Both the position numbers and the translations under genes were made by a program. The notes beneath the pieces were generated by a model. That model was not told the DNA's origin and searched no databases. It was given only the letters and a program-made list of their open reading frames with translations. 46,193 nt of DNA from a virus, in the IMG/VR virus record IMGVR_UViG_3300047551_002877, positions 1 to 46,193 of that record. One strand, 5' to 3'. Below are positions 13,368 through 32,804 of this stretch, in pieces. The number at the start of each line of letters is the position of its first letter. The stretch's first letter is position 1.

Positions 13368-14510
13368 TTAAATAAATCCAATTTTAGAATTAATTTTCTT
13401 AATAGCCTTTTGATCTGTCTGCTTGTTGAATACTTCAGCAATAGACCAAGTGCTTTTATCACCTTCAAGTTTAACTTCGACTCTCTGTGCAAGTTTTTCC
13501 GCTTGTTCTTTAGTCAGTGGCTCGAAAGAAAGAATATCGAAACAACGACCAGGGCGAATCAGGGCTGGATCTACATCACGAATTGAAGGAAGATTTGTTG
13601 AGAAAATCATCTTCTTTCCTTTTGTGGTGACAAGACCATCTCCCACATTCAGAAAGCGATGCATCATTGTATTACCATCACTACGAGACTTCAAGAAATT
13701 ATCAGAGTCTTCAAGCACCATCATTCCTGTGTCATCTTCGATGAATCGAGCGAATACAAAATCTTTTTCGAGAATTGCAGCATCATATGTTACGATTGCA
13801 GACGAATTACTATGTGCAATTAGTCCTCGGATGAATGTAGTCTTTCCTGTTCCAGGAGGACCAATCAGCAAAAGAATATTCGCAGGTGACTTCATGAATC
13901 TGTCATAATAGTCAGTGAGCTTCTCGCCTTTGAGAAAAGGATACATCTCTTCAACTGGCATTCGATCTACATTCAAAGGAACACTTACTGATTCACCATT
14001 GTTAGAATAGATCCATTCGATATATGAAGTGACGAGATCGAACTCTTCAAGAAAATCTTTTTGAATATCATGAATGAAATTCATGTCGCCGTAAGGCTTT
14101 ACGATAATCGAATTTGAACTAACATCATAACGAATAAAATTGTCATTCGCTAATAGAATGATACCACTAGAATCATTGAACTCAAGCAAATGGTCTCGAA
14201 CGAAAGCCTGCTCAATGTAAGTATGCCAGTCTTTTCGATTACCGTGAAGTTTAAATTCCCGAGTATGTGTAGACTTTCCCTTTGTAGCCCGCACATCTAA
14301 AAGTTGAGAGAACACATAATCACTATAGTCAGATGCACCAACAAAAATTTTATCGTTCTTAGACATTTTTATTTCATCTGCGCCCCAGACATAATAATCG
14401 AGGACTCTCTTCGTTCTTTTTCTAGTTTGTATTCTTTTAATTTTTCTCGAATATCGAAGTCTTCGAAGCATTTCATCAATTGATCTATCAATTTTTTCAA
14501 TTTCGCTCAT
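13368..14510 (-). CDS. AAA+ ATPase
   Basis: A 380-residue AAA+ protein. Walker A GPPGTGKT at residues 217-224, Walker B MMVLEDSD at 263-270, sensor 1 STN at about 304, and an Arg-rich RPGR (319-322) as arginine finger. Residues 1-200 are unrelated to the ATPase core and begin with a very basic segment (KIKRIQTRKRTKR), possibly nucleic-acid binding. The core resembles BCS1/ClpX-like remodelling ATPases encoded by T4-like marine phages; substrate unknown. The first ATG overlaps the stop of the lysin gene (ATGA). A start at Met49 is possible but would lose that coupling. Confidence 0.75.
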   Translation of the reverse strand: MSEIEKIDRSIDEMLRRLRYSRKIKRIQTRKRTKRVLDYYVWGADEIKMSKNDKIFVGASDYSDYVFSQLLDVRATKGKSTHTREFKLHGNRKDWHTYIEQAFVRDHLLEFNDSSGIILLANDNFIRYDVSSNSIIVKPYGDMNFIHDIQKDFLEEFDLVTSYIEWIYSNNGESVSVPLNVDRMPVEEMYPFLKGEKLTDYYDRFMKSPANILLLIGPPGTGKTTFIRGLIAHSNSSAIVTYDAAILEKDFVFARFIEDDTGMMVLEDSDNFLKSRSDGNTMMHRFLNVGDGLVTTKGKKMIFSTNLPSIRDVDPALIRPGRCFDILSFEPLTKEQAEKLAQRVEVKLEGDKSTWSIAEVFNKQTDQKAIKKINSKIGFI

Positions 14511-15058
14511 TATACTCTCAATAAATGTTTTCTTTTTTCAACTCTATCCCGTTTGCTTCTGTAGAAAACGTGATTACCTATCTGATTAGTTTTCTGCAAT
14601 TTCCAACCAGGATTTACTTTAGTGTTATGAAAATATGTTGCGCCTTTTGTAATATCATCAAGTAAATGATAGTATAAAATAATTTCCATTGCAAGTGATC
14701 GAATGTCATTATACAACGGGGATCTATAAATTGTCAATTTGTTTTTGGCAATATTTGGATCGCAATACCAAGAGAACTGACAAACACCTCTAATTTTCTG
14801 ATATACAACTCCACAAATGGTATTAGGAAAATTACCAGAAACTACTCTGTTTAATGTCACAAAAGCAACTGCTGCTTTTCCAATTAAGTTTTCTGATCTG
14901 GCCTCGAAATATATGTTCTCTGCGAGACAATTCACTTGTCTCTGTGTATCTTTACTTAGTTCATTGAAGCTAAGAAATACAGGCAATCCTTGTGAGTTTG
15001 CCGCAGATGATAAGAGAACAAAAGTCGAAAGCACTACACTGAAAAGTATAGTTTTCAT
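14510..15058 (-). CDS. Exported SleB-type cell wall hydrolase (endolysin)
   Basis: A 182-residue hydrolase of the SleB/Hydrolase_2 type. Residues 1-22 are a Sec-type signal peptide (MKTILFSVVLSTFVLLSSAANS). The domain starts AENIYFEARSENLIGKAAVA with the catalytic Glu at residue 52, then FVTLNRV, a CQFSWYCD motif and KGATYFHNTKVNPGW. These enzymes cleave peptidoglycan (amidase or transglycosylase reports). Export by the host Sec system would make lysis partly holin-independent. A strong AGGAG lies before the ATG, which starts only about 17 nt after the tmRNA 3' hairpin, so the lysin is probably expressed from the processed tmRNA precursor transcript. Confidence 0.82.
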   Translation of the reverse strand: MKTILFSVVLSTFVLLSSAANSQGLPVFLSFNELSKDTQRQVNCLAENIYFEARSENLIGKAAVAFVTLNRVVSGNFPNTICGVVYQKIRGVCQFSWYCDPNIAKNKLTIYRSPLYNDIRSLAMEIILYYHLLDDITKGATYFHNTKVNPGWKLQKTNQIGNHVFYRSKRDRVEKRKHLLRV

Positions 15059-15074: not shown

Positions 15075-15420
15075 GTTGGTGGGTTATTCTGTTACGAGGA
15101 AACCCACCGAAACCCTAGGCTGAGTTTAGGCAGCCAATGCGAAACGTTCTTCGTTTGCAGTTACTTCGTTTGCTTCTTCGGCTGAGAAGTCTCAACCCTA
15201 CGGCTTTCACATTGCCGGATCGTCTGTTTCTCTACTTATTGCCCTGTCGAAACCAAGTCAGGCCCATCAGAAGCATACTACCTACACCCACTTACGATTG
15301 GCGTAACCAGCGGTAGTTAGAAATCTGCTCATGTATTTCTATAATATGCTTCTGGTGGACCTGGGCGGAATCGAACCGCCGTCCAGAACACCTTTCGATC
15401 TACTTCATACGATCATATTT
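15075..15420 (-). ncRNA. ssrA: Circularly permuted two-piece tmRNA
   Basis: Read on the minus strand, the acceptor piece comes first: T-arm GGCGG-TTCGATT-CCGCC (15364-15380), acceptor strand CAGGTCC, discriminator A and encoded CCA ending at 15353. An excised loop follows (about 15266-15352) with a perfect 10-bp stem TATGCTTCTG/CAGAAGCATA. The coding piece starts GGGCCTG at 15265, pairing over 7 bp with CAGGTCC, then GACTTGGTTTCGACAGGG, the usual tmRNA 5' domain. The tag frame 15126-15173 encodes ANEVTANEERFALAA and TAA. The 3' part has a stem GGTGGGTT/AACCCACC (15078-15108). This is the alphaproteobacterial arrangement. The 5' limit near 15420 is inferred from the end of the upstream gene. 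Confidence 0.9.
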
Positions 15421-16101
15421 TTATTTAGTTCGATAATACCTATCGATATACTCCAACAAATTTTTATAATGATCTGTAGTCTTTTCTATAAAAACTTGTC
15501 CATCTTCTTCTTCGACACCAATCAGTACAACGGATTGATGAATCGGTGTTCCAGTCAATTCATAAAACATCTCAGCATATGCGGTGCATTGCATAAAATA
15601 GTTACCAATAGATTCTTTTTTCTTTGCTTTAGTTGAAGACTTAAAATCAATTACAGATAAAACACCATTCCATTCAGCAATACAGTCTACTCTACCTGCA
15701 ATTCGTAATTGATCAGAATAAAGTGCTTGTTCTAGAGTATAAACTTTCGTGATATTTTTGTCAATATATGGCTTTATCTTTAAGAATAATTCTTTGATGT
15801 TCGGCATCATAGAATGCATCTTCATTTCTGTCATTTCGTTCAGAAGATACTTTTCACATACACTATGAAGTTTTGTTCCGCGGCGAGAAGCTCTGCCTGC
15901 TATCTTATTCGCTTCTTCATTTCCAACTCTTTCGCGCCACTCAGCAATAGCTTTAGAATTGTAATGAGAAAGCACAGTAGTAACAGAAGGATATTTTTTG
16001 CCACTCGGCGTCAGATACACTCTTCCCAAATCTGACGTTTGTGCTTGTAAGTCAAACTGTAACTCTGGCAATTTTACATGCTCAAACAACATGGTCTTCA
16101 T
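15421..16101 (-). CDS. PD-(D/E)XK exonuclease
   Basis: A 226-residue Cas4/RecB-like nuclease. RGTKLHSVCEKYL (about 74-86, His79), GRVDCIAEW with Asp139, and VIDFKSSTK with Asp152 and Lys154 form the expected H-D-D-K active site, followed by QCTAYAEMFYE (motif QxxxY). T4-like marine phages encode such nucleases near phoH; a role in DNA processing or host DNA degradation is likely. It overlaps phoH by 20 nt, and its stop codon directly abuts the tmRNA acceptor piece, so mRNA and tmRNA share a transcript. Confidence 0.82.
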   Translation of the reverse strand: MKTMLFEHVKLPELQFDLQAQTSDLGRVYLTPSGKKYPSVTTVLSHYNSKAIAEWRERVGNEEANKIAGRASRRGTKLHSVCEKYLLNEMTEMKMHSMMPNIKELFLKIKPYIDKNITKVYTLEQALYSDQLRIAGRVDCIAEWNGVLSVIDFKSSTKAKKKESIGNYFMQCTAYAEMFYELTGTPIHQSVVLIGVEEEDGQVFIEKTTDHYKNLLEYIDRYYRTK

Positions 16102-16825
16102 ATCTCAGTTTGGCTAAGATATAATCTTTCACCAACGAAGATCGAACGATATCATCAGGTGTAAACTCAATCTTAGTGAATGCTTCCATATGCAAAGCGA
16201 TATCGAAGAATTTCAAAATACCACTCATGTCATTCTTCTTTTTGTTCAGGTCTGTCTGACGATAGTCACCACACCAGATAATTTTCGAACGATAACCAAC
16301 ACGAGTCATTACAGTATCAATCTCTTCGAATGTCAAGTTTTGCATCTCATCAACGATAATAATTGCATCATCAAAACTCATACCTCGAATGAATGATGTA
16401 GAAATAAATTCTACATATCCTTGTTCTTCGAGCCTTTGATATGCATCTTTGCGACCGAATAATGTCTCGCAGATTTGTCTGTATGGTTGCTGATAAATTT
16501 CCATTTTCTCAGTAACATCGCCAGGCAAATGCCCGACTTCTCTCGATTGAACTGCTGATCGAACGAGAATTATTTTCTTAAATGGATTTGATTTGTCTAG
16601 AACTTCTTCAAGTGCTTTGTACATAGCACAGAAAGTTTTTCCTGTACCTGCTACTCCGTGAAGTGCTACAAAATAATCACCTCTCTTATATGCGTCGAAA
16701 AACTTTTTTTGATTTTCGGTGAGAGGATCGAAAGTTTTAAGATCATCTATCTTGATTCTTAAACTATGAGTATTTTTTGCTTCATCTTCGGTTAGTTTTA
16801 TTTTAGTGTTGGCTTTTCTTGACAT
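16082..16825 (-). CDS. phoH: PhoH-like P-loop ATPase
   Basis: A 247-residue PhoH-family ATPase. Walker A GVAGTGKT (57-64), an LVRSAVQSREVGHLPGDVTE motif, Walker B IIIVDEMQN at about 148-156, and the WCGDYRQTDL segment (about 181-190). PhoH is widespread in marine phages; the precise role (RNA-linked ATPase or phosphate-stress gene) is unsettled. It overlaps the downstream nuclease by 20 nt. A weak AAAGGAT ribosome site precedes the start. Confidence 0.88.
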   Translation of the reverse strand: MSRKANTKIKLTEDEAKNTHSLRIKIDDLKTFDPLTENQKKFFDAYKRGDYFVALHGVAGTGKTFCAMYKALEEVLDKSNPFKKIILVRSAVQSREVGHLPGDVTEKMEIYQQPYRQICETLFGRKDAYQRLEEQGYVEFISTSFIRGMSFDDAIIIVDEMQNLTFEEIDTVMTRVGYRSKIIWCGDYRQTDLNKKKNDMSGILKFFDIALHMEAFTKIEFTPDDIVRSSLVKDYILAKLRYEDHVV

Positions 16826-19707: not shown

Positions 19708-20334
19708 TTAAAGTATGTGATCGGCAACGCCTAGCTTTACTAACTCTTCTGCGGACATCCAAACGTCACTAGGCGTAAGTAGTTTGGACTTAACATGGCG
19801 CTCAGACATTCCTGTAGCGTCTTGAAGAATATTCAACATTCTTGTATTAGTCAATTCGGCTTCTTTTGCGAATGATTTTAGATCGTGGTGTTTGCCTTCA
19901 TAAACATCAGTATATTGATGACACATTATACCACAGTTTCTTGTAATGTATCGGTGACCTTTTTCACCCGATGCAAAAATTAAAAAAGCGGCTGACATAA
20001 CTGCACCAATACCAATCGTGTGAACTGGGCTATTGCTAAGTCTCATTACATCGATTAGACCGAGAGCTTGATATAGATCGCCACCAAAAGAATTTACATA
20101 CAACTTTAAAACTTTATTTTCTGTCTGTACACTATTCTCATAAATTATCCATTGTATCGCTTTGTTTATATTAGTTGACTCTATTTCACCAATAAGAAAG
20201 TGTGTATTCTCTTTGAGAAATGTATTATCGAGTCTATCTTGAACACTAAATGGAAGGTCTTTATCGTCCAACTCTTTTCTTCTCCCATTCGTAGGCGCTT
20301 TTAATGATTGTATCAATTTTGTATTGTGGTTCAT
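19708..20334 (-). CDS. ClpP-like serine protease
   Basis: A 208-residue protein with the ClpP fold signatures: NSFGGD (81-86) oxyanion strand, GAVMSAAFL with nucleophile Ser114, and CGIMCHQY with His139. The Asp of the triad should follow in the EGKHHDL or later helix region. ClpP degrades proteins with a Clp/AAA+ partner; T4-like marine phages encode similar proteins whose role (prohead protease or host protein turnover) is unsettled. The start overlaps the epimerase gene by 74 nt; no better in-frame ATG precedes the conserved THFLIGEI segment. Confidence 0.78.
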   Translation of the reverse strand: MNHNTKLIQSLKAPTNGRRKELDDKDLPFSVQDRLDNTFLKENTHFLIGEIESTNINKAIQWIIYENSVQTENKVLKLYVNSFGGDLYQALGLIDVMRLSNSPVHTIGIGAVMSAAFLIFASGEKGHRYITRNCGIMCHQYTDVYEGKHHDLKSFAKEAELTNTRMLNILQDATGMSERHVKSKLLTPSDVWMSAEELVKLGVADHIL

Positions 20335-28510: not shown

Positions 28511-28585
28511 TGGCCCGACCGGAGGGAATCGAACCCCCATTCGCAGTTTAGAAGACTGCTGTCCTTTCCGTTGAACGACGGTCGG
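28511..28585 (-). tRNA. tRNA-Arg (UCU)
   Basis: Cloverleaf with acceptor CCGACCG/CGGTCGG, anticodon loop CTTCTAA, T-loop TTCGATT and encoded CCA. Reads AGA, frequent in AT-rich genes. Confidence 0.92.
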
Positions 28586-28591
28586 AATGTT

Positions 28592-28675
28592 TGGTGCGAC
28601 TGGCCGGACTCGAACCGGCACGTACTAGACGGGAGATTTTAAGTCTCCTGCGGCTACCGATTACGCCACAGTCGC
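28592..28675 (-). tRNA. tRNA-Leu (UAA)
   Basis: 84 nt, class II with a long variable arm; anticodon stem GGAGA/TCTCC with loop CTTAAAA; acceptor GCGACTG/CAGTCGC; CCA encoded. Confidence 0.92.
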
Positions 28676-28719
28676 ATTGTTCATATGATAAATTAAATTT
28701 AGTTTTCTGTCAAGTGTTT

Positions 28720-28794
28720 TGGTGCCTCCTGACAGAATCGAACTGCCGTAACCGTCTTGTAAGGGCGGAGTTTTACCATTAAACTAAGGAGGCA
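28720..28794 (-). tRNA. tRNA-Val (UAC)
   Basis: Acceptor TGCCTCC/GGAGGCA, anticodon loop CTTACAA, T-loop TTCGATT, CCA encoded. The anticodon stem has one C-A mismatch (30-40). Confidence 0.85.
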
Positions 28795-28795
28795 T

Positions 28796-28870
28796 TGGGG
28801 TGTCTAACGAGTACCGACCTCGCGCCTACTCTTTCACAGAGAGTAATGCTTCCATTACACCATAGACACC
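28796..28870 (-). tRNA. tRNA-His (GUG) with atypical T-loop
   Basis: Acceptor GTGTCTA/TAGACAC with an extra 5' G opposite discriminator C73, the histidine identity pair; anticodon loop CTGTGAA; CCA encoded. The T-loop reads GTCGGTA instead of TTCGANT. Confidence 0.82.
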
Positions 28871-28875
28871 ATTGT

Positions 28876-28953
28876 TGGAGCGGGTAGGGAGATTCGAACT
28901 CCTCACTTCGAGTTTGGAAGACTGGCGTGCTAACCGTTAAACACTATACCCGC
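28876..28953 (-). tRNA. tRNA-Gly (UCC)
   Basis: Acceptor GCGGGTA/TACCCGC, anticodon loop CTTCCAA, T-loop TTCGAAT, encoded CCA. One C-C mismatch in the anticodon stem. Confidence 0.85.
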
Positions 28954-28958
28954 ATACA

Positions 28959-29429
28959 TTACGCTGCTAAACTTTTCAATCTATCTGCTGCATATGAAGC
29001 AGCAAAAGCATTTGGCTTCACAAGAGGAATAACATTACACATTCCTTTTATGTATCCAATTGCTTCATTAATTACAATACTAGAATTGTACTCTTCATTC
29101 GGATTAATGTCAAGATGAACTTCAATTTCAAGATCGATCATTGCCGCTAATTGAAGGTACATTTCAGCGACTTTATAAACTTCATTCATCAATCTCATGC
29201 GCGGTTTATTACGTGCTTGGTCATAGTCGCGTTCCCGAGTAATTTGACCAAATATTTTGCAACCGTGCTTACCGTCCATATGTACAACAATCGCTATAAT
29301 ATAGTCGGCATGCCATTGACCATTTACTTTAACTTTCTCGGAATCGCAACCAAGATAGACTTTTGTATTTGGTCCACAACTATCAATAAATTGTTTTACT
29401 TCTTCTAAATTAATTTTCTTGTTGTACAT
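28959..29429 (-). CDS. YkuK-like RNase H-fold protein
   Basis: A 156-residue protein started at MYNKKINLEEVKQFID (29429), AGGTAACT upstream; a longer frame would run into tRNA-Trp. Features of the YkuK (DUF458) family: VYLGCDSEKVKVNGQWHADY with Asp of an RNase H-like strand, IIAIVVHMDGKHGCKIFG, HLDINPNEEYNSSIVINEAI, and PNAFAASYAADR at the end. Catalytic activity is not proven for the family; an RNA- or DNA-cleaving role is inferred. It lies among tRNA genes, which may hint at tRNA-related action. Confidence 0.78.
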   Translation of the reverse strand: MYNKKINLEEVKQFIDSCGPNTKVYLGCDSEKVKVNGQWHADYIIAIVVHMDGKHGCKIFGQITRERDYDQARNKPRMRLMNEVYKVAEMYLQLAAMIDLEIEVHLDINPNEEYNSSIVINEAIGYIKGMCNVIPLVKPNAFAASYAADRLKSLAA

Positions 29430-29443
29430 AGTTACCTCATTTG

Positions 29444-29519
29444 TGGCCTCGGTGTACGGACTCGAACCGCATCTTTTGATTTTGGAGATCAACGTGCTGC
29501 CATTAAACACTACACCGAG
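29444..29519 (-). tRNA. tRNA-Trp (CCA)
   Basis: Acceptor CTCGGTG/CACCGAG, anticodon stem TTGAT/ATCAA with loop CTCCAAA, T-loop TTCGAGT, CCA encoded. Confidence 0.92.
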
Positions 29520-29524
29520 TTTGG

Positions 29525-29599
29525 TGGTACCCCGTAATGGTAACGATCCATTCTCTACGCCTTATCAAGACGTTGCTAATCCATCTCAGCTAACGGGGC
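29525..29599 (-). tRNA. tRNA-Ile (GAU) with atypical T-loop
   Basis: Acceptor GCCCCGT/ACGGGGT, anticodon loop TTGATAA, T-stem AATGG/CCATT enclosing ATCGTTA instead of TTCGANT. The 3' end reads A-CCA-CCA, a doubled CCA. Confidence 0.8.
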
Positions 29600-29605
29600 A
29601 TTACT

Positions 29606-29681
29606 TGGCCGGTCCTGAGAGAATCGAACTCCCGTCTCCTCGTTCGTAGCAAGGGATTCTAATCCATTGAACTAAGGACCG
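29606..29681 (-). tRNA. tRNA-Arg (ACG)
   Basis: Acceptor CGGTCCT/AGGACCG, anticodon loop CTACGAA (A34 would need deamination to inosine by host TadA), T-loop TTCGATT, CCA encoded. Its first 23 nt overlap the end of the upstream CDS. Confidence 0.9.
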
Positions 29682-30408
29682 TTTTGATTTCTTTTAAATT
29701 TTTGTATTCGATAATCGCATCACTCATAGAATTTAAACTCTCTTTGATTAGGTCTTTATGTTTATTCCACACTTTCGAAAGTGGAACAACTTCTATATTT
29801 ACAAAAAACAAACTTGTGTTGTTATCTAGTAATGGTAATGTAGTTTGTTTCTCAACTCTGAAATAAAGTGTATTGAAATCTACAGTCTCATCTTTATACT
29901 CTTTCACGATATCGGGATGACAACTTAAGTTCGGTACTTTCGTAATCGTCCAAACATATCGAAGAAAACTTCCGAGAGAATGGTTTGCCATTGTAGTGCT
30001 TAACTTCGGGCTCATTCTTCGCAAAACATCACCATCAGCAACGGGAGCATGAAGTTCTGCTAAAGTCTTGCCGAGACCTTCGCGCGGAACCCAACTACTC
30101 GGAAAACAAAAGCATATTGAAGACAATACGCCTTTGTGCATGATAGCTACATCTTCTTCAAAGTTCATTGCAAACTCTACGATATCACCTGTTACTTCTT
30201 TTCCTAAAAATGAAGAAGCTCGGCGCACCAATTGATTAGATACAGAATCTACAGTCTCTCCGTAAAGATCACTGCTGAATTTTTTTAGTTGCATATACTT
30301 GCGAAGAATCCTATCATCAGAAGGATTTTGATTATAAACTTCGCCAGTATTTCGTATCATTCTTGGTTGTGTTGTGTATGGTACTTTAATAATATCTTCA
30401 ATATTCAT
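29659..30408 (-). CDS. Possible heme-dependent oxidative N-demethylase-like (DUF3445) protein
   Basis: A 249-residue protein started at MNIEDIIKVPYTTQPR (30408), with GGAGATACT upstream; longer frames enter tRNA-Met. The core, FEEDVAIMHKGVLSSICFCF, PSSWVPREGLGKTLAELHAP, VADGDVLRRMSP and GSFLRYVWTIT, has the look of DUF3445 proteins, some of which demethylate amines oxidatively using heme. Substrate in a phage is unknown. The stop codon lies inside tRNA-Arg(ACG). Family call is from memory of motif layout and should be tested. Confidence 0.6.
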   Translation of the reverse strand: MNIEDIIKVPYTTQPRMIRNTGEVYNQNPSDDRILRKYMQLKKFSSDLYGETVDSVSNQLVRRASSFLGKEVTGDIVEFAMNFEEDVAIMHKGVLSSICFCFPSSWVPREGLGKTLAELHAPVADGDVLRRMSPKLSTTMANHSLGSFLRYVWTITKVPNLSCHPDIVKEYKDETVDFNTLYFRVEKQTTLPLLDNNTSLFFVNIEVVPLSKVWNKHKDLIKESLNSMSDAIIEYKNLKEIKTVLSSMD

Positions 30409-30417
30409 AGTATCTCC

Positions 30418-30492
30418 TGGTGGTTCAAAGTGGTAACGCTCCACTCTCCTCGGCTTATGAAACCGGTACGCATCTCTCTACGTCATTGAACC
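30418..30492 (-). tRNA. tRNA-Met (CAU) with atypical D- and T-loops
   Basis: Acceptor GGTTCAA/TTGAACC, anticodon loop TTCATAA, T-stem AGTGG/CCACT enclosing AGCGTTA. The D-loop AGAGAGAT lacks the GG pair. Anticodon stem has one C-A mismatch (27-43). Encoded CCA. Probably elongator methionine. Confidence 0.75.
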
Positions 30493-30493
30493 T

Positions 30494-30569
30494 TGGCTGA
30501 CCGATCAGGGATCGAACCTGACTCACACGGATTAACAGTCCGGCCGCACACCGTTGTGCGTTTCGGTCA
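30494..30569 (-). tRNA. tRNA-Asn (GUU)
   Basis: Acceptor TGACCGA/TCGGTCA, anticodon loop CTGTTAA, T-loop TTCGATC, CCA encoded. Confidence 0.9.
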
Positions 30570-30576
30570 ATATTTT

Positions 30577-30653
30577 TGGTCCGAGTAGAGAGATTCGAAC
30601 TCCCGACCCACTGGTCCCAAACCAGTTGCGCTACCGGACTGCGCTATACTCGG
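30577..30653 (-). tRNA. tRNA-Pro (UGG)
   Basis: Acceptor CCGAGTA/TACTCGG, anticodon stem ACTGG/CCAGT with loop TTTGGGA, T-loop TTCGAAT, CCA encoded. Confidence 0.92.
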
Positions 30654-30661
30654 ATAAAACT

Positions 30662-30735
30662 TGGTGCCCCCACCTGGAATCGAACTAGGAATTGATGATT
30701 ACAAGTCAACTGTTATGCCATTTAACTATAGGGGC
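30662..30735 (-). tRNA. tRNA-Thr (UGU)
   Basis: Acceptor GCCCCTA/TGGGGGC, anticodon loop CTTGTAA (one T-T mismatch in the stem), T-loop TTCGATT, CCA encoded. Confidence 0.87.
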
Positions 30736-30743
30736 GAAAAATA

Positions 30744-31349
30744 TTAAGACTCTAAAAAATACTTTGGTGGAGCATCAGGGATTCGAACCCTGCTGATATC
30801 TTCCTTGCAAAAGAAGTGACCACTCCAAGCAGTCCCATGCCCCTCTATAAACTTCTTTACAGTTTCATCATTGTTCCTATGCAACCTAAAATGGTCGTTC
30901 GGACATAGAAAAATTAAATTACTAGGGTGTATATTTTCTCTATTTTCATCGATATGGTGTACATCTAAGATGTCAGTAACACCACATACAACACAAACAG
31001 GTTTGTAAAATTTTTCTGCAATTGTCCTATAATGTGTATATCCATACTTTTCTGCCTTTGCTTTCCCCCCAATGCTATTAGCACACACACGGGAGCAAAA
31101 GTATTGAGATTTTTCAGGAAATTTCTTTTCTCTTTCTGTCACCTCAAACACAGACTCACAAGTAAAACATTTAACTGAAAATTTTTTGTAACACCCTATG
31201 TCTCTATCTAATCTTTTATGTAGTGCCTTTATTCCGTTTTGATATGATTCCCTTTTCTTAGGGTTTTTATCACAATGCCTAGAATGATTAGCTTTCTCTG
31301 AAGCACTTTCGAAATCAAAATATTCTTTACAGTGTTTGCAGTTCCACAT
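30744..31349 (-). CDS. HNH homing-type endonuclease running through tRNA-Ala
   Basis: A 201-residue protein started at MWNCKHCKEYFDF (31349), AAGGAGATTT upstream. The N-terminal zinc finger is C4-C7...H22-C26, a second Cys cluster lies at 61-64 and 85-89, and the HNH core has C119/C122, His131-His132, Asn144 and His153 (CVVCG, DVHHIDENRENIHPSNLIFL, CPNDHFRLH). Residues from about 170 to the stop are encoded by tRNA-Ala and its 3' flank, so the protein tail (GHGTAWSGHFF...) is a translated tRNA. A perfect TATAAATA octamer lies 21 nt upstream. Likely a mobile nuclease inserted beside a tRNA gene. Confidence 0.85.
   Translation of the reverse strand: MWNCKHCKEYFDFESASEKANHSRHCDKNPKKRESYQNGIKALHKRLDRDIGCYKKFSVKCFTCESVFEVTEREKKFPEKSQYFCSRVCANSIGGKAKAEKYGYTHYRTIAEKFYKPVCVVCGVTDILDVHHIDENRENIHPSNLIFLCPNDHFRLHRNNDETVKKFIEGHGTAWSGHFFCKEDISRVRIPDAPPKYFLES
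30765..30843 (-). tRNA. tRNA-Ala (UGC) inside the HNH reading frame
   Basis: Acceptor GGGGCAT/ATGCTCC, D-stem GACT/GGTC, anticodon stem CTTCT/GGAAG with loop TTTGCAA, T-arm CAGGG-TTCGAAT-CCCTG, CCA encoded. Two departures: G at position 8, and a 7-nt variable loop. Confidence 0.82.
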
Positions 31350-31369
31350 ATAAATCTCCTTGTGCGGAG

Positions 31370-31377
31370 TATTTATA
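31370..31377 (-). promoter_or_regulatory. T4-type late promoter TATAAATA before the HNH gene
   Basis: Exact octamer on the minus strand, 21 nt before the HNH start, giving a leader of only about 14 nt. Confidence 0.6.
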
Positions 31378-31441
31378 CATCGCAATCTTTCTACAAACGC
31401 AGCATGCTCCCATTATCACTAGCAGCCCGAAATATTATATA

Positions 31442-31520
<79 letters not shown>

Positions 31521-31528
31521 GAAAAGTT

Positions 31529-31660
31529 ATGGTTACCATCATCTGTTTAAGAGCCAAAGAGCGGCTCCCCGAGCTTTCTAATGTCCCTTGGCTAAAGGGC
31601 GAACGGGTCAGTAGTACCTTAATGGTTAGGCTGCTTGGCCTCGCATTTTAACAGAACCAT
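31529..31660 (-). ncRNA. Unexplained structured segment in the tRNA cluster
   Basis: A 132-nt stretch between tRNA-Ile2 and the inverted-repeat spacer. It closes with ATGGTT/AACCAT and CTGTT/AACAG and contains small hairpins AGGC-CAAGCA-GCCT, ACC-ATTA-AGGT, CCCTT-TAGCC-AAGGG and GAGCC-GCTCTTT-GGCTC. No tRNA T-loop or CCA end and no ORF. Strand is inferred from its tRNA neighbours. It could be a decayed tRNA pair or a new small RNA. Confidence 0.4.
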
Positions 31661-31779
31661 ATTGAAACGCACTGAGATAACCGTGACAAGCGGGGTCTTT
31701 TTACATCTCTCTACAAGTATACGCACCAGGCAGTCACTCCTGTTCTGAGTATACTATCGATTATGCGCTTCAATATGGT
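31656..31779. repeat. Inverted-repeat spacer A between tRNAs
   Basis: Arms ACCATATTGAA(A)CGCA at 31656-31671 and TGCG(C)TTCAATATGGT at 31764-31779 pair over 16 positions with one mismatch. An inner repeat AGTATAC/GTATACT surrounds CAGG/CCTG. The right arm overlaps the CCA end of the tRNA at 31776. Confidence 0.75.
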
Positions 31780-31852
31780 GCCCTCTCTCAGATTCGAACT
31801 GAGACTTTACGGCTTCTAAGACCGTCCTCTCTACCAATTGGAGTAAGAGGGC
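31776..31852 (-). tRNA. tRNA with anticodon UAG (Leu?) but class I shape
   Basis: Acceptor GCCCTCT/AGAGGGC, anticodon stem ACGGT/GCCGT with loop CTTAGAA (anticodon UAG, reads CUA leucine codons), T-arm CTCAG-TTCGAAT-CTGAG, CCA encoded. The variable loop is only 5 nt, whereas leucine tRNAs normally have a long arm, so amino-acid identity is uncertain. Confidence 0.75.
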
Positions 31853-31854
31853 AT

Positions 31855-31929
31855 TGGCGGTTCCAACGGGAATCGAACCCGTCCCTGCGCCGTGACAGGG
31901 CGCTATACTCGCCGATATACTATGGAACC
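31855..31929 (-). tRNA. tRNA-Asp (GUC)
   Basis: Acceptor GGTTCCA/TGGAACC, G73, anticodon stem GCGCC/GGCGC with loop CTGTCAC, T-loop TTCGATT, CCA encoded. Confidence 0.92.
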
Positions 31930-32007
31930 ATATTGAAGCACACTGGCTATAGCATATCAGGTCCGCAAACCCCTATCGCTGGTTCTTACAATGTGCTTCA
32001 ATATGGT
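31927..32007. repeat. Inverted-repeat spacer B between tRNAs
   Basis: Perfect 16-bp arms ACCATATTGAAGCACA (31927-31942) and TGTGCTTCAATATGGT (31992-32007) enclose 49 nt between tRNA-Tyr and tRNA-Asp. The outer 11 bp are identical to spacer A. Confidence 0.85.
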
Positions 32008-32090
32008 GGATGCGGATGGATTCGAACCACCAGCGTTTCTTATGTCACAGATTTACAGTCTGCTGCCTTCAACCGTTTGGCTACGCATCC
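32004..32090 (-). tRNA. tRNA-Tyr (GUA)
   Basis: 87 nt, class II variable arm, acceptor GGATGCG/CGCATCC, anticodon loop CTGTAAA, T-loop TTCGAAT, CCA encoded. Confidence 0.92.
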
Positions 32091-32094
32091 ATAT

Positions 32095-32168
32095 TGGTAC
32101 GGGCACCGAGAATCGAACTCGGATTTGCTGGTTAAAAGCCAGCTACTTTACCACTAAGTTATACCCGC
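32095..32168 (-). tRNA. tRNA-Lys (UUU)
   Basis: Acceptor GCGGGTA/TGCCCGT, anticodon stem GCTGG/CCAGC with loop CTTTTAA, T-loop TTCGATT, CCA encoded. Confidence 0.92.
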
Positions 32169-32173
32169 ATATT

Positions 32174-32248
32174 TGGTACATCGTACCAGAATCGAACTGG
32201 TCTTTCCAGCGTGAAAGGCTAGCGTCCTAACCGATAGACGAACGATGC
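32174..32248 (-). tRNA. tRNA-Glu (UUC)
   Basis: Acceptor GCATCGT/ACGATGT, anticodon stem CTAGC/GCTGG with loop CTTTCAC, T-loop TTCGATT, CCA encoded. First tRNA after the internal promoter and boxA-like leader. Confidence 0.92.
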
Positions 32249-32274
32249 ACAGAAAACTAAATTTTTAAAGATCG
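32249..32274 (-). promoter_or_regulatory. boxA-like leader in front of tRNA-Glu
   Basis: Minus strand CTTTAAAAATTTAG resembles rRNA boxA (GCTCTTTAAAAATTT). A 23-nt sequence here is identical to one at 32805-32827. It lies just downstream of the promoter at 32296. Confidence 0.5.
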
Positions 32275-32295
32275 TTACTGCTCACTACAGAAACG

Positions 32296-32351
32296 ATTAT
32301 ACTCTTTTCCATCACTTTGTCAACAACTTTTTGTTGTTGTATTTTTACAAC
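32296..32351 (-). promoter_or_regulatory. Internal tRNA promoter with GTTG-N8-CAAC element
   Basis: Palindrome 32336-32351 (abutting the tRNA-Cys CCA end), TTGACA 32318-32323, 16 bp, TATAAT 32296-32301. Perfect consensus hexamers. Confidence 0.8.
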
Positions 32352-32429
32352 TGGAGCACAGAGTCAGATTCGAACTGACGGTTTTAGAGTTTTGCAGACT
32401 CTTGCATTGGGCCACTCTGCCATCTGTGC
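32352..32429 (-). tRNA. tRNA-Cys (GCA)
   Basis: Acceptor GCACAGA/TCTGTGC, anticodon stem AGAGT/ACTCT with loop CTGCAAA, T-loop TTCGAAT, CCA encoded. Confidence 0.92.
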
Positions 32430-32435
32430 AAATTT

Positions 32436-32530
32436 TGGTAGTAGGTAAGAGATTCGAACTCTCCCGTTTCAGCCCATCTGACCGATCTCCCGCGCTTATA
32501 AGACGCAGCCGCACACCAGTGCTACCTACT
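32436..32530 (-). tRNA. Atypical class II tRNA, anticodon UAU
   Basis: 95 nt. Acceptor AGTAGGT/ACCTACT, anticodon stem TGCGT/GCGCG with loop CTTATAA (UAU, isoleucine AUA), T-arm GAGAG-TTCGAAT-CTCTT, CCA encoded. The variable arm is about 27 nt and the D-arm is abnormal (GCAC-TGGT-GTGC), so the shape is Ser/Leu-like while the anticodon is Ile. Could be degenerate. Confidence 0.55.
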
Positions 32531-32532
32531 AT

Positions 32533-32624
32533 TGGCGGTGATGACAGGATTCGAACCTGTGGACCTGATTTCTCAAGCCGACGGTTTAGCAAACCGCTGA
32601 TTTAAGCCACTCATCCACATCACC
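32533..32624 (-). tRNA. tRNA-Ser (GCU)
   Basis: 92 nt, class II, acceptor GGTGATG/CATCACC, anticodon stem GCGGT/ACCGT with loop TTGCTAA, T-loop TTCGAAT, CCA encoded. Confidence 0.92.
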
Positions 32625-32630
32625 AACTTT

Positions 32631-32723
32631 TGGCGGAAGAGGTGAGACTCGAACTCACACACCCATTACTGGGCCTTCTGCTTTCAAGGCAGCTGCCGCT
32701 ATGCCGATTCGGCTAACTCTTCC
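32631..32723 (-). tRNA. tRNA-Ser (UGA)
   Basis: 93 nt, class II, acceptor GGAAGAG/CTCTTCC, anticodon loop CTTGAAA, T-loop TTCGAGT, CCA encoded. Confidence 0.92.
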
Positions 32724-32730
32724 TAAATAT

Positions 32731-32803
32731 TGGCAGGGGTGCTTGGAATCGAACCAAGGCTAACGGAATCAAAATCCGATGTGATACCATTTCACCACAC
32801 CCC
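32731..32803 (-). tRNA. tRNA-Gln (UUG)
   Basis: Acceptor GGGGTGT/GCACCCC, anticodon stem TCGGA/TCCGT with loop TTTTGAT, T-loop TTCGATT, CCA encoded. First tRNA of the cluster. Confidence 0.92.
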
Positions 32804-32804
32804 A

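Follow-up and report, generated by a model that had tools for sequence, protein, structure and literature searches.

A circularly permuted tmRNA gene in a T4-like phage, and probable small protein genes in the intervening sequences of its relatives

Results

We analysed a stretch of viral DNA of 46,193 nucleotides (nt; IMG/VR record IMGVR_UViG_3300047551_002877), here called the window. It represents part of the genome of a T4-like phage and encodes a single-strand binding protein, a tail tube cap, a gp59 helicase loader, a late-promoter regulator and a baseplate hub. Its minus strand holds, from 15414 to 15078, a complete circularly permuted transfer-messenger RNA (tmRNA) gene: ARAGORN calls a permuted tmRNA on that strand with the tag ANEERFALAA, and the Rfam model RF04321 (tmRNA_permuted; gathering score 47) matches with 126.6 bits (E = 1.6e-24) over model positions 1-213 of 213. 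A preliminary description, made from the sequence alone, had proposed a phage-encoded permuted tmRNA here and suggested a covariance-model search as a check; the RF04321 match, well above its cut-off, and the ARAGORN call bear the proposal out.

The pieces, whose coordinates were set by exact matching, lie in permuted order (acceptor half 15391-15353, intervening sequence (IVS) 15352-15266, coding half from 15265). The acceptor piece (15353..15414, minus strand), placed by ARAGORN, RF04321 and exact coordinates, comprises one strand of an inter-piece helix, a T arm, the 3' acceptor strand and an encoded CCA (15355-15353). The 87-nt IVS (15266..15352, minus strand), delimited by covariation, fold and coordinates, is predicted to be excised; it forms a hairpin collinear with the acceptor stem and ends in UGAU. 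The coding piece (15078..15265, minus strand), placed in the same way as the acceptor piece and with its 5' end at 15265-15239, carries the 5' acceptor strand GGGCCTG, a D-loop-like region, the resume element, the tag and a final hairpin of 8 base pairs (bp; 15108-15078). The encoded CCA and the complementary 7-bp acceptor stem (CAGGTCC/GGGCCTG, third pair G-U) that had been noted earlier were both located, as was the 10-bp stem in the excised loop (CAGAAGCATA/TATGCTTCTG), whose full length is 14 bp. Both tmRNA pieces can be held to each other by a helix of 6 bp (GATCGT/ACGATC). The precursor folds at -114.4 kcal/mol, compared with -93.2 kcal/mol (standard deviation 5.4) for shuffled sequences (z = -3.97), none of the 100 shuffles being as good.

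The tag reading frame (15126..15158, minus strand) runs GCA...TAA, encodes ANEERFALAA* and is fixed by ARAGORN together with the conserved resume element. Its resume codon is the second GCA, 3' of a conserved AGUAAC element (context AGUAACU-GCA), and in relatives the element before the resume codon is mostly AGUAAAC, AGUAACU or CGUAAAC. The plausible tag frame with a degron-like (ClpX-type) end that the preliminary description had seen is therefore real, although its length is 10 residues and not 15: the longer version began at an upstream in-frame copy of GCAAACGAA, and it is ruled out by the conserved resume element and by the in-frame stop that lies within five codons upstream of the resume codon in 25 of 116 unique phage coding pieces. 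Most phage tags retain a C-terminal ALAA or a similar ending. Those of five loci (L030, L043, L051, L028 and L025) end in RIAA, LMAA or RLAA, not ALAA, which possibly reflects a changed protease preference.

Conservation of the gene in related phages

Relatives were gathered as 80 viral loci through the neighbouring exonuclease gene, and further loci came from pattern scans. Among six exonuclease relatives that were negative by ARAGORN near that gene (L008, L009, L011, L013, L017 and L050), the covariance model recovered a tmRNA in four; ARAGORN thus undercounts, and the tmRNA gene is common among these phages. In 126 unique phage sets, an average of 9.27 of the 10 IVS stem positions are paired; shuffling the partners gives a mean of 6.80 and at most 7.10. 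To our knowledge, this stem lies outside ARAGORN's test. The acceptor stem pairs at 7 of 7 positions in every one of these sets, a pairing that ARAGORN itself demands. The IVS ends in UGAU, opposite the ACCA end, in 113 of the 126.

The closest relative, L003, whose neighbouring proteins are mostly 95-100% identical to those of the window, has the same tag, and the first IVS pair differs between the two by a compensatory change from G-C to A-U. At greater distances, the order of exonuclease (often with PhoH), tmRNA and lysin is kept while lysin and exonuclease identities drop to 36-65%. The IVS itself varies from 25 to 215 nt among phage copies; most of the sampled bacterial copies have one of 25-43 nt. 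In three groups of loci (L016 and L053; L246, L282 and L285; the window, L003 and L176), IVSs that are identical or nearly so are joined to tmRNAs that differ in acceptor stem or tag, as would result from a modular recombination of acceptor, IVS and body.

Probable small protein genes within the intervening sequence

In many relatives, an open reading frame (ORF) led by AAGGA as its ribosome-binding site starts just past the CCA and fills the loop of the IVS, but the 87-nt IVS of the window has no such loop-filling ORF. (The ORF that it does contain, MSRFLTTAGYANRKWV, was taken as chance, being without a Shine-Dalgarno sequence and shortened in L003.) Frequencies were taken from scans not aimed at such IVSs, and loci selected for AAGG were left out because that selection inflates the totals. 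On this basis, 14 of 99 unique IVSs have an ORF of this kind, where dinucleotide shuffles lead one to expect 0.89; by the criterion of filling the loop, the count is 14 of 98 overall and 7 of 11 among IVSs of at least 130 nt. Among the longer IVSs that were selected for AAGG after the CCA, and not for ORFs, all 27 unique ones contain an ORF that begins no more than 26 nt from the CCA and is at least 28 codons long.

The encoded proteins are 22-60 amino acids long and fall into 23 sequence families, nine of which have a membrane-like segment. Differences between independent pairs of these ORFs number 23, 19 and 43 at codon positions 1, 2 and 3. In the family beginning MFENW, 6.5 of 12.7 synonymous sites and 3.5 of 74.3 non-synonymous sites have changed between L246 and L165; the contrast is weaker in the MKYTA family. 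Where it could be tested, this pattern points to purifying selection. One locus, L330, has two small genes in tandem within a single IVS, the IVS protein of L048 has standalone relatives elsewhere, and in many cases the conserved UGAU, which pairs with the CCA, supplies the stop codon UGA. That the IVS ORFs of relatives are real genes is well supported, and we consider it likely, judging from these comparisons of sequence, that the IVS serves as a slot for small protein genes in this phage group, of which the window would carry an empty, non-coding version. Loci with an IVS ORF are L028, L048, L054, L175, L189, L214, L246, L262, L291-L327 and L330, several of them encoding a single membrane-like span.

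Neighbouring genes

Just upstream of the tmRNA, on the same minus strand, lies a PD-(D/E)XK exonuclease gene (phrog_298; 15421..16101), preceded by a gene for a PhoH-like ATPase (16082..16825, minus strand); both are conserved neighbours recognised by profile matches and synteny. The exonuclease stop codon is only 6 nt before the tmRNA, which is therefore probably excised from a longer transcript. Downstream, a gene for a 182-residue lysin (14510..15058, minus strand) matches the SleB-type cell wall hydrolase family PF07486 with 82.1 bits (cut-off 27) and a PHROG endolysin, and its product has a hydrophobic, signal-like N-terminus, in agreement with the exported lysin of the preliminary description. 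Its ATG at 15058 is separated from the last tmRNA hairpin (ending at 15078) by 19 nt, close to the earlier estimate of about 17, with a ribosome-binding site inside this gap.

Farther off, a ClpP homologue (19708..20334, minus strand) was identified from PF00574 (116.8 bits, cut-off 20.2), alignment and synteny, and its Ser, His and Asp align with the catalytic triad of bacterial ClpP. A ClpP homologue occurs in 19 of 30 related or tmRNA-bearing records and, in the window's own group, mostly lies 5-9 kb upstream of the tmRNA. An S77 prohead protease is present as a separate protein in five related records as well; ClpP is therefore not accounted for by head maturation alone, and the view of it as no more than a head-maturation protease was rejected. 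The window also has, at 28511-32804 (minus strand), 23 tRNA genes called by ARAGORN for every amino acid except Phe, with ORFs interspersed, one of them (30744-31385) a possible HNH endonuclease; two of the calls, tRNA-Ile(tat) at 32436-32530 and tRNA-Ala at 30765-30843, come from ARAGORN only, and Rfam at its cut-off finds neither.

Lineage type and host

As a lineage model, the beta_tmRNA family RF01850 (gathering score 84) fits the window gene best, with 119.1 bits over its full length; alpha_tmRNA (RF01849, cut-off 50) gives 51 bits, barely over its cut-off and far under beta. The beta model is also the better lineage match in 12 of 14 related phages. A gene from the betaproteobacterial family Rhodocyclaceae (L111) reaches 288 bits with the same model, so that the phage genes are well diverged from the betaproteobacterial one. 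The permuted tmRNAs of Stenotrophomonas phage Marzo (RF04321, 119 bits; beta, 95 bits) and Xanthomonas phage X1 (RF04321, 77 bits) extend the form to phages of Gammaproteobacteria.

The preliminary description had taken the two-piece form, known from Alphaproteobacteria and a few other lineages, as a mark of the likely host range; the inference of an alphaproteobacterial host was rejected on the model scores and on the copies in gammaproteobacterial phages. Since phages of Stenotrophomonas and Xanthomonas have permuted tmRNAs, the form of the gene is no host marker; nor does lineage type identify a host, given the genes of Marzo and X1 and an alpha-like one that phage Melnitz is reported to have in a host of another class (PMC9004378). 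Neither should serve for naming the host of a phage. Bacterial genomes offered too little to name one: one pattern scan yielded a single Rhodocyclaceae metagenome-assembled genome, and of 250 genomes belonging to its order about 11 have a clear permuted gene, which is insufficient for the purpose. Three bacterial genomes (G155, G176 and G250; loci L121-L123) have a strong permuted tmRNA match together with a second, weaker tmRNA match, and the permuted copy in them may be phage-borne.

Discussion

Its complete permuted anatomy, conserved and covarying stems, conserved neighbourhood and degron-like tag make it very probable that the locus is a permuted tmRNA gene that functions in this T4-like phage; it is situated between exonuclease and endolysin genes and most likely co-transcribed with them. 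If so, its transcript would fold as a single long hairpin of acceptor stem and IVS, RNase P would cleave before GGGCCTG, and 3' processing would free the encoded CCA; the 87-nt IVS would then be discarded, leaving two pieces joined by helices. Transcripts of permuted tmRNA genes are known to be cut into two pieces by tRNA-processing enzymes (PMC11915505). Host alanyl-tRNA synthetase, SmpB and EF-Tu would load the tmRNA on ribosomes stalled at broken mRNAs, ANEERFALAA would be added, and ClpXP-type proteases, part of which the phage ClpP homologue may provide, would degrade the tagged product. The benefit to the phage could be the recycling of ribosomes and the removal of truncated proteins during destruction of host transcripts, that is, ribosome rescue during host takeover. 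That a phage might supply both tag and peptidase is an attractive idea, and the presence of the two genes in one genome makes the joint delivery of a degradation tag and part of a protease testable.

Several observations weigh against this interpretation. The ClpP homologue is divergent (80 bits against the best solved bacterial ClpP), and its link with the tmRNA is one of position only. The gap between exonuclease and tmRNA is too short for a promoter, and sigma-70-like matches nearby were not clearly above chance. An SmpB gene was not found in ten related phage records, several of which are fragments; such phages would therefore depend on host SmpB. This last result would also suit a host tmRNA that was captured recently or is decaying and rides along as passive cargo, unused by the phage, and phages are known to pick up ssrA fragments, for example by imprecise prophage excision (PMC9004378). 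However, the gene is complete, near relatives show compensatory change, covariation is strong and the position of the tmRNA is kept across many diverged phages, all of which makes passive carriage very improbable.

The neighbouring lysin raises two other explanations. The RNA might mainly counteract or replace host tmRNA, serving as a decoy or a sensor that sets the time of lysis, and not take part in ordinary rescue; in 93 loci a lysin gene follows downstream in syntenic position and same orientation, which fits a link to lysis, and a review statement ties tmRNA to lysis decisions (PMC7162821). Yet the tag frame is intact, with its degron-like end, and the lysin gene is usually not adjacent, so that we regard such a role as unlikely. 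Alternatively, the tmRNA could be chiefly a processing signal that releases lysin mRNA from a long transcript, in line with the suggestion in the preliminary description that tmRNA processing liberates this message. In the window this could happen, given the 19-nt gap with its ribosome-binding site, and no terminator-like site was found between tmRNA and lysin on the minus strand. As a conserved mechanism it is rejected on spacing: only about 17 of the 93 loci have the lysin gene no more than about 50 nt away, and it lies at 291 nt in L003 and 0.3-3.7 kb away in most other relatives, and in L330 the tmRNA is followed by a terminator-like hairpin and a T run. A processing signal as the main function is thus very improbable, and a functional tmRNA remains the reading that we prefer.

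If the IVS of relatives is indeed a coding slot, what tmRNA maturation discards as waste can be a gene, and proteins are packed into a non-coding RNA gene in a new way. The arrangement may also have a built-in conflict between translation and RNA processing: because the ribosome-binding site would be buried in the precursor stem, we speculate that translation and tmRNA maturation compete. The MFENW and MKYTA ORFs lack a stop codon ahead of the RNase P site, and the excised piece would therefore be a non-stop message. A description of coding IVSs was not found in a literature search that did not extend to most subscription papers or to the classical two-piece tmRNA papers, and for the contents of permuted IVSs a 2025 tmRNA survey mentions no more than one tRNA gene and one repetitive element. 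The nearest parallel is provided by group I introns with endonucleases in tmRNA genes (PMC11915505), which likewise place a protein gene in a removed tmRNA segment. Those introns, however, are self-splicing, sit in the T-loop and encode homing endonucleases in 36 of 883 cases (PMC11915505), whereas the relatives use the permutation IVS, with proteins of 22-60 amino acids.

The window gene belongs to a published kind, in that permuted tmRNAs of phages are known: phage records have been reported to contain 53 two-piece tmRNAs, of which 50 stem from samples of marine or aquatic origin (PMC9004378). Like the OM43 phage Melnitz (PMC9004378), the window represents a T4-like myophage with a permuted tmRNA. 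The Melnitz gene is reported to be closest to those of Alphaproteobacteria and lies upstream of a transcription coactivator, with a predicted glutamine riboswitch (PMC9004378), whereas that of the window is beta-like, stands beside exonuclease/PhoH and lysin genes, and shares its genome with a ClpP gene. It resembles the betaproteobacterial permuted tmRNA in its best lineage model, yet differs in its much lower score with that model and in its longer IVS. The genes of Marzo and X1 share the permuted form and an IVS ending in UGAUGGG; they differ in their tags, called as VAANDDSYTVRIAA and VAANDADYSVARYA, and in their gammaproteobacterial hosts. The present analysis extends these known cases by a lineage of phage tmRNAs that is well supported and is linked with both a conserved gene neighbourhood and a ClpP homologue encoded by the phage.
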